From Coffea arabica (taxonomy: Eukaryota; Streptophyta; Magnoliopsida; Gentianales; Rubiaceae), in assembly GCF_036785885.1 (NCBI RefSeq), contig NC_092317.1, positions 3,412,501 to 3,476,500 of the forward strand: DNA of 64,000 nucleotides, in the 5' to 3' direction. Below are positions 33,470 to 62,599 of the stretch, in pieces (position 1 is the stretch's first letter; every line of letters starts with the position of its first letter). The position numbers were made by a program, and so were the translations under genes. The notes under the pieces are model-generated. The model saw only the letters and a program-made list of their open reading frames with translations, was not told where the DNA came from and ran no database searches.

Positions 33470-34174
33470 CTAAGCACTTGAAGTAGGGTCTTCGTTCTCA
33501 ACAGCATCAATATCAAGACTATTTGGATAACTTGGATGAATGGGAAACAAAGGCAAAAGCGGGGGTGGCTTAGATCCTCCGGGAGTATCACTACTAGTGG
33601 GGAGCAAATAATAACCCTTCTCATCAATCCCCTGCATCTCTTCATCCAACGGTGCTGAACAAGTTATCCTCTGCGGCGCTTTTGTATTCCCACATGCCAA
33701 ATTTTCCATCGGCGACACCGTCACCTGGTCGAAGCTGAACCCAAAAACTCTTCTTGGCCTCGCGGAAGAACCCGAGGAGGAGGAGGACGATGAGGAGGAG
33801 GAGTAAGTGGAGGATGAGGATGATGATGACGACGACGACGATGATCCACTTTTACCACCACAGTCAAGGAGGCGGCCATTGTTGTTAACCTTGATCTCCG
33901 GCACACATACGCTCCGCCTTCGTTCATGGAGCTTGAGGCCTGGTCTCCGGGCACCCATGTCGCGGGAGGGTGGTTTCCCGGCGACAGGATGCGGGTAAAC
34001 GGTCGGTGGATTTTCTTCGGGTAAAGCGGTGAACTTTTGGACCACGGCTTTGAAGTTGGAGACGTCAGTTTCTATATAGATTGTCCTGCGGCTTGGGGGT
34101 TTTTCCTTGACTGAGGAAGCTGGTAAAATTCTGTAGGCATCGTTGGTTTTCTTGTTGGAAGATGGAGAAGCCAT
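33470..34174 (-). CDS. VQ motif-containing protein (MVQ-like)
   Basis: Intronless gene of 234 residues. VQ proteins are plant-specific cofactors that bind WRKY transcription factors through a short motif. Here the motif is in NFKAVVQKFTALPEE at about residues 40-55 (F-x-x-x-V-Q-x-F-T-A). Further on are PSRDMGARRPGLKLHERRRS, the conserved block VCVPEIKV, two serine runs (about residues 105-135) and a C-terminal GYYLLPTSSDTP and PPPLLPLFPIHPSYP. A tyrosine-leucine-proline element followed by LLPLFP is typical of the subgroup phosphorylated by MPK3/MPK6 (for example VQ4, VQ31, VQ33), and several Ser/Thr-Pro sites are present. I chose the ATG at 34174 (MASPSSNKK); an in-frame ATG eight codons upstream (34198) would add MIFFLSPF. 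A TATA box and TTGAC W-box cores lie upstream. Confidence 0.9.
   Translation of the reverse strand: MASPSSNKKTNDAYRILPASSVKEKPPSRRTIYIETDVSNFKAVVQKFTALPEENPPTVYPHPVAGKPPSRDMGARRPGLKLHERRRSVCVPEIKVNNNGRLLDCGGKSGSSSSSSSSSSSSTYSSSSSSSSSSGSSARPRRVFGFSFDQVTVSPMENLACGNTKAPQRITCSAPLDEEMQGIDEKGYYLLPTSSDTPGGSKPPPLLPLFPIHPSYPNSLDIDAVENEDPTSSA
33774..33845 (-). repeat. Coding triplet repeat (polyserine) in the VQ gene
   Basis: On the plus strand the segment is a run of GAG, GAT and GAC triplets; read on the minus strand it encodes two serine runs split by Thr-Tyr. Mixed codons suggest age, but the pure stretches could still vary in length. Confidence 0.85.
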
Positions 34175-34498
34175 GAAAGGCGAGAGAAAAAAGATCAAGG
34201 TAGTGAAAGATGATGCAAAAACTGCACTGAACAGAGAAGCGGAAAATTAGGCATAGATTCTGGCGATCTTTTTCATGTTTAGAAGTAAAGAAAAACCAGA
34301 TATCAGCAGAGGTCTTGTACAAGTACAGGGAATTAAGGCATGAATGAATTGTTGCTAGTAAGTTTCCTGCAAATTGCTATGAACTTATATACTTTACTAG
34401 TAGTAAGCAGAGGGTACATGAAACTGGAGAGCTTTTGGTATGGGGAAAGAAAGGTGTTTTGTTTGATTTGTGGAAGAAGTTAGTCAAATAGTGGGGTG

Positions 34499-56406: not shown

Positions 56407-57339
56407 AATCAGTAATCGAAAATTCGAAAATCAAACTTCAATATTTATTCCAGAATTATTATACCAAACTTTAAAAATGAGTTATAAATGGATTTCACCC
56501 ATATCTTTGCGGCGAATATTTGATATCCGATTTAAGTTGGATTCGATCTTCTGTTTTTTTTTTTCTCAAAATATTGAACATTCCTTTTTTATTTTTTTTG
56601 CAAAAAAAAAAAGGCATTTGTAGGCTGCCCAACAAAAAGCTGCCCCTTTTTGCACCCTATTGCTAGTAAAATACAATGGGCCTGAGTCATGTGCCTCGGA
56701 GAGTAGATGTTAAAGCCCAACCCAAAGATGCATACAATCATCACTAAACAAGTGTAATGAATGCCTTTTCACTCTATTTCTTATTTTTTTTTTTTTTGGA
56801 TAAACATCAGAATCAAATGCCGCGTCACCTTGCACAGACGAGAAAGGTTACCTTATTGATTGTAAACTTGTAGTCCGATGATGACAAAGTTATCACAATA
56901 GATTCCTTTGTCTGATACAGAATTATGGTCTTATTATCGATTACTGTTATAACATAGTTAAACTTATATGTCATCACGCACCAGTTCTCTCTCTTAACCG
57001 TCCCCAACGCTTTCACACCCCTCGGTCTTCATCCCTTCATTCTTCGAATTTTCAGGTCTCTGTTTATTCTTTTATTTTCGAATTATTAATTCCAAGGTCA
57101 TTGTTCCATATGCTGCAACGGAAACAAGTTAAGAATACATGATTTTGATTGTGGAGTTATGCTGTTTTGTGAACTTCATTGACTTTCTGCATGGAGATTA
57201 AGATTCGTTCGTTTAGTGCTGAAATTAAGATAGATGATCTGTAATCAATAAAAAAAAAAGCCGATTTTGATTGATGGACTTAATGGGCTTTGTTTCTTTT
57301 GTTTTTGCTAGTTATTTGATCGCTGCAGTGAGATAGAAG

Positions 57340-60300
57340 ATGGGTAATGCTTCATCCACGCTGACTCAATATGACATTGAAGAAGTACAACGACACTGTA
57401 ACAATCTTTGTATGTCTTCCTTGACATATTCCCAAGCTTTGTTCCTTTTTTCAAGGATGCAATTTGAACTGAAAACTGTCCTTTCCTTGTAATTGTTATA
57501 GTTTCCCAACAAGAGATAGTGTCTCTTTATCAGAGGTTTTGCCAACTCGATAGGAACGCAAAGGGGTTCATATCAGCTGATGAATTTTTATCAGTTCCAG
57601 AGTTTGCCATGAATCCACTTTCTCAGGTGGACGTTGGGATTATTTATTTATTTTTTTAATTTCTTCTTGTTATTTTATTTTTAGAACCTTTTTGGAATCT
57701 AATCCTGCTTAGTTTGTATATCGCTGCTTTTCTGGTTGGCTGTTTTCTATTAAGCGTGTCATTTCGTTTTACTTTGTGGTTCTTTACAGAGGTTGCTTAA
57801 GATGGTGGATGGTTTGAATTTCAAGGATTTCGTCGCATTTTTATCAGCTTTTAGTGCTAAAGCAAGTCTAGCCCAGAAAGTTGAAGGTAGGTTCACCATC
57901 TCTCTGTTTCTCTTTTAGGAATTAAAATTCCCAGTAAACATGATCTGATGTCTCTCACTAAAATACGTGATTGTCTTTTGAATTACTGTGTAATTGAACT
58001 TGTTGAATGAGTAAATGAAGGAGTTGAGTGTGGTTCCTAACTGATGCAAGTTTTCTTAAGTTGGTTTTGCAGTTTTTTATGTTTATCTGATACATATCGA
58101 GAGTATTATTTTGGATCTAAAGGAGATCAGACAAATTTTTGTTTACTTATTTTCTTGATATGTAGCTCTGAATGAAAATTTTTACAGAACGGAATCAGAT
58201 GGCTAGCACTGTAATATCGTTGTGACGTTTCGTAGGAAGTTTTAGTACTTAGTCTAAGATTTGTTTAATCTTGAGTATTTGGACTTTTGAGTCTCACTAT
58301 TGTAATTGTGAATGCATATGTGAAAATTGATTTCATGATGAATGAATTGTACTGTTCCCCTCCACCAACTATTTCCTCTGTGCTCTTTACACTGGACTTG
58401 AGTGCAAAAATGAATTTCCAACAAAAGAGTATACTTTCTTGAACATATTGTGCATTGACTAATGTGTTTGGTGGTCTATGTAATGTGTCCCTTGTATTAC
58501 TTTTCTTGTGTTTTTGTTTCTCCTTTAGCATATTGTTAATCCTTGTGACATGCCTGACAGTTATTTTCAAGGTATATGATTCTGATTGCAATGGGAAGGT
58601 GACATTCAATGACATGATACAAGTGCTTCAGGATTTGGCTGGCTCTTTCATGTCAGATCAACAAAGAGAGGTATTTTTGCTGCTAACCTTCCTGTTTTAG
58701 GTTACTAGTAGCGATGTATTGCTGAACTTAAGGGCAGCAGCTATCACTAACTTTTGCAGTTCTGGTTAATTTGCTACTTACAAAACATTTGAAGAAATTC
58801 CTTGTTTAAGAGGTGTATATACACCAAGTTGTGCCAGTTTTCAAGAGTTAGTAGCATATTCAGTTACTGGTAGATCATGCACAAATACAAGACATATCGG
58901 GGAACATTATCTTTAATTCAAAAGAAGCAATCATGACCATGTAAAGCTTCTAGATGGACTTGGAGAGGTCCAGAAGATGGTAGAAATTCAATCTTTCAAA
59001 GGGAATTCTGAGATTTAGTTGAACATTGAGAATATTCTGATATAAAGTAATGACTCACCTGTTTAGGTGTAGTTCACTCTGGCTGTTTTTCATACAATTG
59101 ATAGTTTATGAACTTTCTATTTAAAATCTGGCATTAGCTTGACATCTAGCGACAACAATGATGCCCCAATAGATAGCATGTGGTGTTGCACCATGAGGAC
59201 ACACCATAGTCTCATTACATGGTTTTGCTAGTCTCTTCTCATGCCTAGGACCAAATTCTATCTCCAATTGTGCATAAACAAGTATTCCCAACATAGCAAA
59301 TTTGTCATAAATCTTGTGTGTACAGTAATTGATGGAGTCACTTAATTTTCAGATGTTGATTCACCTTGGTTGCTTCTGAGTATTTTCTTAAGTGGTCCTT
59401 GAATTCCTGAGGTTGCGCTTTTATTTTTTCCATATCTTTTTGTCTGGTTGCTGTACATCAGAGAGTCATATCCTAGTATTCCATTTTCAACTTTGGGTAT
59501 GGCAACAAAAGCATGACAAGCTCTTGTTCGTTTGATTATATTTTCTGTAGGAAGTATTGGGCCAAGTTTTGCACGAAGCTGGTTATACAAAGGAGTCTGT
59601 GCTACTCTTGGATGACTTTATCAAGGTTTGTTTCTTAGTGTAACTTGCAAAAAGATTATCTACCTAAGAATGGGATAGAAGAAAGGTGTACCCGGGCTAA
59701 ATGACTTGTTTCCAACTCAATTTTATGTTTAGGAAGCCTGTAATACTTACATTTTCCTACTTCTCATGAATCTGGAAATTAGTGAGGTAGAGATGCAACA
59801 TCTTTAGCTCCATCTATTTGTCGTGAAGGATATGATTTTAAGACTCTTAATAATGATTTGCAAAGGAAATTACCATTGCATAAGTCAAGAGTACTTTCAC
59901 AGAGAGTAAATGAAGCCTGCCCATCCAGATTATGACGATTCAGTTTTTGAGATAGGGAGCCTATCTACGCCTGAGAAAAGTTGGTAAAACATTAATGTAT
60001 AGGATGGTGTACCTATAGTTGATCCATTTGATACAGCGTTTGCCTATTCTATCTAGACTTCTGATGTTTTCTAGTTTCTAGATCTTGATACTGCTGTAGA
60101 TGAGCTACTCTTGTGTCTGAAACTTTCAAGAATTAGATATCATAATGGTGGTACTTGTCCTTCTCTGTCGTGGTAACAGCCAATTAAGTGATACCTATGT
60201 TATATTAAACTGCCTCACTTGGGGCTGCTGCTTGTTACTGTCTATCATAATCTGCTCTCTCAAAATGATCATTAACCTGCTTTTGTGTTAGGTATTTGAT

Positions 60301-60342: not shown

Positions 60343-61657
60343 CTAAGCTTGCAGTCTATGTTCTTCTTCTGTAGCTTAATTCAAGATGACTTTGCAAAGT
60401 ACATCCAGCCGTCCTTTGTAAAACCACAACTCTGTATTAAAGTCATTTGTCGTTTTTATTTTCTGGGTGAAGGTCTTGAAGTATATAGGTTGAACGCTGC
60501 AGGAATCACCCAGTGACATGTATTTAGAATAATAAAACCTGTGCATATATTTCTTGTTCTGCCACTAATCTCTATTCATCTTCACCTTCCTTGTGCCTCT
60601 CCTAACAGTCTCAAGTGTGCTTCATTACACGCATACCGTTGTACTTGAAGATATAGATACTTTACTATTTCATTTCCTTTTTGCCACTTTAGGCTACATA
60701 TTGCAGTAGGTTTTTTGAAGAAATTGCGGGGGTTAGATCAAATATATTTCCAAAGTTATAACGCTTGGAAGCAATGCTGACACAAAGCTTCGACCATAGA
60801 TGAACAACTTTCATCTGTGGCTTAAAAGTTTAAAAACATGCACAATGTATATATATGGCCGGTATTCAGAACTCAATTTTAGCAGATTATTTTGACACAA
60901 TTCAGGTCCTTCAAAACTCACCTTGATTGTGGGTTTCTTTAAAATTTGAACCCCTTTTTAGTGCCACATTCACATTCTGTTGATGTCCAGCCAAATTTTC
61001 TCAAGGCCGAAAATATTGTCTACTAGAATCAGTTCTCACAGGAGGCAGGCAGAGTCTGCAAGAGTCACCAACCGACTAAGCACCTTCCTAATTGCTACTG
61101 CTATAATTACAGCCGAAACTTCCTGCCAAACATGTGAGAGACAATTCCTGCGGCCGCGGAATTCAAAATTGTCAGTAACTGCAAGTCTGCAACTGCATCT
61201 CATCAATTAATAATTCCGTGATATCTCATGTTTCCTTCAGCCCCCGGCAACCCTGAGTCCCTACTTCTCCCTTGCTATAGGGGAATCAAAGAGCGCTAGT
61301 ACCAGTATAGATTGTAAACTTCTTTCCTACTCCTTGAGTTATCTCAGACAAGCAACCATCATCCACTTGAGAATCATGTGATCTCACCAACATACATGAA
61401 CTTAGCTTTAAATTTCATGCATCATTTGTGGGAGGACTTATCGTCCCTAAAACCAAACTTGTGTGATTTTCATGCACATGCATGCTTTGTTTCCGCATCA
61501 TCTCCATTGTATTGTGTACGTATATACTAGTTTCTTTCGAGTTCTCAATTTCCACGCAAGTTCGGGCAGAGTTGTTATGACCACGTTGTGAGTGATTGCA
61601 ATCAAGAGAAAAAAGAAAACAATAAGAGGGTTTGATCCAGTTGCTCTGGATTTTGGC
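60343..61657. other. Intergenic region after the EF-hand gene
   Basis: Probable 3' untranslated region up to about 60540 (AATAAAACCT near 60530). The rest is unremarkable; an open frame near 60980-61210 has no recognisable feature. Leader or upstream exons of the next gene may lie near its end. Confidence 0.45.
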
Positions 61658-62249
61658 ATGTCAGGCAGCAGGAGCGTTACTGCTCAGTCACTGGAATTGA
61701 GGGTTTTGAATAGAAATCATGCGTGTGAGATCTCATCAGATACAACTAGTTCTGGGAAAAGGAATCACGAGAGGAAGATGCACGTCAACAGCAAGCTAGT
61801 TAAGCAACTGGACCAGAGATTGGGAATTCTTGAAGATGAAGGTGAAATCCTCAAGGGAGAATTCATGAGAAGCATGCAAGAAAGGGCAGAGTTAATCGCT
61901 GAGGTTCGCAATCACTTTGAGGATATGCATTATTATTTTCGTCTCAAAAGCCAAGAATGCGGAGACATTTCCTCCCAAGGAGCTTTGACCATTGAACCTC
62001 TCAAGGTAATGCCTCGAGTTTCCTTTCCCGTTCTTGTGTCGTGTACATTGATGCTTGGTCCCTCACTTCCCCCAAGGCCCCAACCCACAAAAAAAAAAAC
62101 AAGAAAAAATCAGTAATTTTGTCATTTTTTCCCTTCGTGATGCACAGAAGGAGAGGAGTGGCCTTTTACAAGTACTGTGCCAAGAATCAAATCCATCACT
62201 TTTGACCAGAACCCTGAGTGCTCTCGTGTCGGGTCAGTTCAGCCGGTGA
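61658..62249 (+). CDS. Unknown coiled-coil protein with SINE-altered C-terminus
   Basis: Two exons, 61658-62005 and 62148-62249, joined by a clean donor (CTCAAG/GTAATG) and acceptor (TGCACAG/AAGGAG), giving 149 residues. I do not recognise the family by name. The first exon has a basic N-terminus (MSGSRSVTAQSLELRV, then GKRNHERKMH) and a predicted coiled coil, LVKQLDQRLGILEDEGEIL to AELIAEVRNHFEDM (about residues 48-88), with leucine or isoleucine at heptad-like spacing. Exon 2 encodes KERSGLLQVLCQESNPSLLT, then runs through a target duplication into an inserted SINE and stops there, so the last residues (after LSAL) are SINE-derived. An in-frame ATG upstream (61592) would add 22 residues with a KRKKK cluster. 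Earlier exons cannot be excluded. Frame and splice sites are intact, so it may still be expressed, but a pseudogene is possible. Confidence 0.55.
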
Positions 62250-62395
62250 ATCCTTGGAGTATTTCTTGTGAGACGCGATTTGAGTCTGGCTTCACATATC
62301 GTCTGGGTGCTCTTGGGAGGCGGGATACTTCAGGTCGAGATTAGTCCGGCAAAACTGGGATACTCCCTGATTGACAAAAAAAAAAAAAAAAAAAA
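62224..62395 (+). mobile_element. SINE insertion with poly(A) tail and 19-20 bp target duplication
   Basis: 172 bp ending in 21 A residues. The 20 bases before it (GACCAGAACCCTGAGTGCTC, 62204-62223) are repeated after the tail with small differences (GACCAGAACCTAAGTGCTC, 62396-62414). GATTTGAGTCT at 62277-62287 resembles an RNA polymerase III B box; the A box is degenerate. Length, A-tail and long duplication fit a SINE mobilised by LINE machinery. Confidence 0.85.
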
Positions 62396-62599
62396 GACCA
62401 GAACCTAAGTGCTCAAGCAGGACCCAGCTAAATATATGACCAGTTCCCAAGCATATAAAATAGTAAACTAGTATTTGAGGAATATTGAAATTCTTCCAAG
62501 GCCATGGAATTTTGCAAAGCTTACTCAATGTTTTGCATTTTTGGCATCACTTGAGACTTGGATGTCTAATAATTTCTGTTCCAGATCTCTTCTATCAGT

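Follow-up and report, generated by a model that had tools for sequence, protein, structure and literature searches.

How does a small plant gene come to close its reading frame inside a repeated element, and what becomes of a protein whose C-terminus has been exchanged in this way? The question is raised by a two-exon frame (61658-62005 and 62148-62249, + strand) in the window, i.e. the whole 64,000-nucleotide stretch of DNA that was analysed (C8:3412501-3476500). We consider it very probable that a SINE insertion replaced the C-terminus of the encoded protein and that this swap of tails was nearly neutral.

Gene model and insertion site

The features of the locus are given below; P numbers refer to protein sequences and L numbers to places in the genome.

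61658..62005, + strand: first coding exon, 116 codons, from ATG to a GT donor; P0001 and P0002 read across the junction (...TIEPLK, then KERSG or KERTG...)
62006..62147, + strand: intron, 142 nt, GT...AG; absent from the P0001 frame, present in the matching genomic copy L030
62148..62249, + strand: last coding exon in its present reading, closing at TGA 62247-62249
62204..62223, + strand: left copy of the target site, 20 nt; the one target found in each of the empty paralogues L031 and L032 is identical to it
62224..62395, + strand: SINE-like element, 172 bp, with an A20 tail (62376-62395); repeated in the genome
62247..62249, + strand: stop TGA supplied by the SINE, at which the frame now closes; 18 of the 20 other copies that were examined also have it
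62277..62287, + strand: B-box-like site GATTTGAGTCT; family consensus GGTTCGAGTCT
62396..62414, + strand: right target-site copy, 19 nt, with one C lost and one G-to-A relative to the left copy
62414..62431, + strand: orphaned old codons QAGPS and old stop TAA (62429-62431), now 3' of the new stop

Named homologues of the gene come from Cinchona, Paulownia, Rehmannia, Olea, Handroanthus and Phlomoides. The window protein matches no Pfam family above the cut-off; the best match among nine members of its family is bZIP_1 (E 5.5e-4; three of the nine at E <=0.1), and other coiled-coil-type families match this set more weakly; it was the sequence-only reading that labelled the gene coiled-coil. 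The family motif GLLQVLCQESNPS occurs in exact form in P0004, P0005 and P0008, and slight variants of it are found in P0003, P0006 and P0007. Upstream of the ATG the window frame remains open for 22 codons (61592-61657) and begins at a GTG where P0001 has M; P0002 carries a stretch similar to this region.

The element sits in the last coding exon. The 20-nt target closely follows the family motif, and the element starts eight codons after the motif. As the sequence-only reading had proposed, a poly(A)-tailed element (62224-62395) lies between near-identical repeats of 19-20 bases (62204-62223 and 62396-62414), an arrangement confirmed by the empty paralogue sites described below. Translation of the present frame also reproduced its entry into the SINE and its end at TGA 62247-62249 (...LSALVSGQFSR), and the old end predicted for the left copy was obtained again: with that copy kept and the element removed, the frame reads ...LSAQAGPS and closes at TAA 62429-62431. 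With the right copy kept instead, it ends ...LLTRT. The size of the exchange had been put at about four residues lost for about eight gained; the eight stand (L-V-S-G-Q-F-S-R), whereas the loss amounts to five (Q-A-G-P-S, codons 62414-62428). The first base of the old Q codon is the last base of the target repeat. The two target copies differ by one indel and one substitution, and the right one reads ACC-TAA, both as originally noted; to this can be added that the two changes differ in age (see below).

Taken by itself, the target repeat could be chance. In a test based on local alignment, in which the repeat need not abut the A- or T-run, its score of 28 was reached at 19 of 20,000 random window positions, and at one other (57250-57259) of the 34 A- or T-runs of at least 10 in the window. 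For the SINE-like element, the explanation of the repeats as a chance match was dropped because of the empty sites in paralogues. In the region of the other run, 57141-57282, the 10-base A-run is followed by three bases and then by 20 bases that nearly repeat, with one gap and one mismatch, the sequence at 57141, and the whole resembles a second, short retroposed insertion; the frame downstream of it (58443-58700) we take, judging from its translation, to be EF-hand-like.

Empty and filled sites in the same genome

The genome searched, to which the window itself belongs, comprises 1.198 Gb in 131 contigs. The gene region (query 61500-62223) was found at four places: the window itself, L030 on C7 (95% identical), and L031 (C8:29.40 Mb, 74%) and L032 (C7:26.32 Mb, 66%), the last two matching only the later part of the gene. 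Both L031 and L032 contain the target once, letter-identical to the left copy of the window; it is adjoined by sequence matching that found 3' of the right copy in the window, the TAA falls at the same codon, and both would end LSAPTRPS. These two older paralogues have frames that look interrupted, and in L032 a portion of the second exon is missing as well. The insertion is settled by their empty sites, taken together with the 39 further copies of the element that were scored elsewhere in the genome.

The sequence-only reading had suggested a search for an empty site; besides these two cases at the DNA level, such a site is seen at the protein level in P0002 and P0003. P0002 ends PRTLSVQAGPC, an empty-type ending, and P0003 (Cinchona) has RSSSARAGAI at the corresponding position and then continues. 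In all six reading frames of the window (127,996 residues), one six-residue stretch scores as high as the match of QAGPC plus stop to QAGPS plus stop, and the shorter QAGP occurs twice. P0004-P0008 also lack the element-derived end, and their tails differ too much for the old QAG to be recognisable in them. None of the four genomic places encodes P0002, since they match it at no more than 77% in the first exon.

The copy on C7, L030, has the element at the same place. Like the frame in the window, its frame stops at the SINE-borne TGA, and its protein ends ...TRTLSALGSAR. The L030 product is identical to P0001 over both exons, except for residue 1 (GTG read as start). P0001 was predicted from a 942-base contig, and the intron is already removed from its frame; we treat it as a transcript because a genomic contig would show no spliced frame unless it were a retrocopy. 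We take it to have been transcribed from the C7 copy or, in a relative, from a copy nearly identical to it, and the SINE-derived end of the C7 copy is probably transcribed. The cluster of P0001 has six member sequences.

A codon-aware cost test, comparing the P0001 tail with the 5' end of the element, gave weak results and was made unnecessary by the discovery of the C7 DNA. In its first form the P0001 tail was equalled or bettered by 51 of 3000 random tails and by 4 of 24 permutations; in its second, the counts for random tails were 36 and 40 of 2000 for two consensus forms and 92 of 2000 for the window, and those for permutations were 5, 5 and 7 of 24.

The element and its family

A search of the genome with the element (query 62230-62400) gave 98 candidates, 40 of which were scored; all 40 matched, including the window's own, so that the family has at least 40 members. 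The best 20 of the 39 other scored copies were taken with their flanks and aligned; since they include five pairs with matching flanks, they do not represent 20 independent insertions. A-rich tails are found in these best 20 copies, and all 20 have a direct repeat of at least 9 nt near the element ends (12 exact, 8 imperfect; a count without a chance control). The new stop was brought in by the element, because the columns that form it near the element start also read TGA in 18 of the 20 other copies, the exceptions being a TAA and a gap. Compared with the consensus of the 20, the window element differs at 16 of 142 compared bases, all 16 being transitions, and 6 columns are gapped.

Against the B-box pattern GGTTCGANNCC, the family consensus has one mismatch and the window copy three, and at most one mismatch is found in 8 of the 21 copies. 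The best A-box match has two mismatches in both the consensus and the window, and one or two in single copies, at differing places. Neither ARAGORN nor Rfam detected a tRNA-related head in the window copy or the 20 other copies, although both may overlook degenerate heads of this kind. With Rfam at E <=10, the window copy gave one match, far below its gathering score, and the 20 further copies gave five, every one below the gathering score. A blastn search of the 64-kb window revealed no second copy of the element (outside the A tail only short hits, E >=0.36). Exact-pattern pieces of it gave no match in prokaryote and viral collections, as expected for a plant element, and its RNA fold is no better than that of shuffled sequences (z -0.05; an equally good or better fold in 96 of 200 shuffles). 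In view of the tRNA results we call the element SINE-like, a class that would rest on its structure and copy number, and leave a tRNA origin aside.

It resembles the plant SINEs described for AnnoSINE, with its A tail, target repeats, many copies and B-box-like site; in the window copy the A-box-like and B-box-like sites are 31 nt apart, which falls within the A-box to B-box distance of 25-50 given there (PMC8825457). It departs from them in lacking a tRNA head recognisable by ARAGORN or Rfam.

In mammals, Alu-derived coding sequence stems mostly from spliced intronic copies and not from direct insertion into a coding exon. The likeness to the present locus is that a SINE provides a host gene with codons or a stop; the difference is that here the element inserted directly into a coding exon. 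Another parallel is the Au SINE of wheat, which is described as forming part of coding sequences, with variants that have starts inside the SINE and altered protein lengths, in a report that also mentions the mammalian Alu case as a SINE contribution (PMC5787218). According to the same report, 35 of 40 insertions in the tabulated wheat genes are intronic, entry into the coding sequence being by intron retention or exonization (PMC5787218). In both plants a SINE contributes to coding sequence; in contrast to the mostly intronic wheat insertions, the one described here occurred directly in the last coding exon and has empty paralogues in the same genome. That SINEs can contribute to coding sequences in plants is thus already known from the Au SINE of wheat (PMC5787218), and this locus is a new case. 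As a plant record it is unusually complete: two paired chromosomes each carry a filled copy, the paralogues preserve the empty site, and both copies of the target as well as a spliced sequence are available.

Order of events and fate of the new C-terminus

C7 and C8 look like paired chromosomes, either homoeologues or two assembled haplotypes. Five more pairs of element copies with similar flanks lie on C17/C18, C3/C4 (twice), C13/C14 and C21/C22 (the last with a flank difference of 14.1%). The insertion predates the separation of the C7 and C8 copies. Both left target copies have the full 20 nt and both right copies have 19 nt, so the C was lost from the right copy before this separation, or at insertion. 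The G-to-A change that turns the right copy into ACC-TAA is private to the window and absent from C7, and is therefore younger. The net difference between the C7 and C8 tails is 9 nt, in frame. Close to its start the window element contains bases that the family consensus does not have, and the C7 element is short of bases there, so that more than one indel in this region is likely. The common frame of the two copies may either have been kept throughout or have been reached twice. In addition to the change near its 5' end, the L030 element is missing 47 aligned columns, in one block, from its middle.

The course of events can be outlined as follows. A SINE, presumably copied by a LINE reverse transcriptase, inserted into the last exon of the gene, eight codons past the conserved motif, where it split the fifth codon before the old stop and duplicated 20 bp of target. 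Translation would now pass through the left target copy into the element and end at the TGA at element nucleotides 24-26, so that QAGPS would have been replaced by LVSGQFSR. A stop in the last exon is not expected to elicit the decay triggered by a downstream exon junction, and, as the new stop lies 3' of the only known intron, the mRNA would presumably escape exon-junction-dependent decay.

The exchange might simply mark a relaxed gene, itself decaying and making no useful protein. Several observations point in this direction: L031 and L032 look broken, the window protein falls below every Pfam cut-off, and the C7 and C8 copies differ over their 141 shared codons by 3 synonymous and 6 nonsynonymous changes (88.2 and 334.8 sites), a nonsynonymous to synonymous ratio of about 0.5 on nine changes, which would only weakly favour constraint on the protein. 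However, both filled copies retain an intact frame, a spliced form of the C7 product is on record, and the asterid homologues retain the motif or a close variant of it; we therefore regard gene decay as unlikely. It is less likely still that the mRNA of the window copy avoids the SINE by splicing or early polyadenylation, leaving the SINE-derived end on paper only. The spliced sequence does match the C7 copy and not the window copy, but the two genomic copies are 95% identical over the searched gene region, and the C7 one corresponds to a spliced sequence that reads the SINE-derived end.

Omitting gapped columns and a short stretch around the ends, the window and C7 elements differ at 17 of 93 aligned columns (18.3%; 13 transitions), and their flanks at 23 of 720 (3.2%). 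The five other pairs (L013/L022, L015/L018, L017/L026, L011/L028 and L014/L024) gave element/flank differences of 13.9/1.4, 19.1/4.3, 21.5/4.0, 9.0/6.7 and 15.9/14.1%, i.e. three strong excesses in the element and two slight ones; with the window pair (62224-62375 against L030), four of six are strong. Transitions account for 123 of the 136 element differences in the six pairs together, and deamination of methylated cytosines is the likely cause of the rapid change. After the separation the element thus changed faster than its flanks, and the two frames, with unlike SINE-derived tails, close at one and the same TGA.

Recruitment of the SINE-derived tail for a function, maintained by selection, is very hard to accept: the C7 and C8 frames do close at the same SINE-borne TGA, with tails that differ by an in-frame length, and the C7 product does exist as a spliced sequence, but LVSGQFSR and LGSAR are unlike in both sequence and length, tails vary across the family, and the element changes faster than its flanks, which is the opposite of constraint and disfavours selection on the new tail. 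Since the C-terminal tails of the family differ in length and sequence (those of P0003-P0008 being of varied length), the swap was most likely nearly neutral. The insertion was probably harmless; there is no sign of a function for the new tail, and its effect on the protein appears small.

The order of events is clear at this locus, which also serves as a natural test in which the decay rate of an exonic SINE can be compared with that of the surrounding gene. It is conceivable, though we find it doubtful, that the exonic element is still silenced as methylated transposon DNA and thereby places a mutation hot spot at the end of the protein. If so, an exonic SINE would provide a gene with a tail whose rate of evolution is several times that of the remaining gene and which is closed by a stop that the element itself brought.

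Elsewhere in the window, on the - strand, lies a gene for a VQ-motif protein (33470-34246). Its best hits are unnamed proteins that share 45% and 42% identity with it, and none of its named relatives is close, the best sharing 37%; the protein contains long serine runs.
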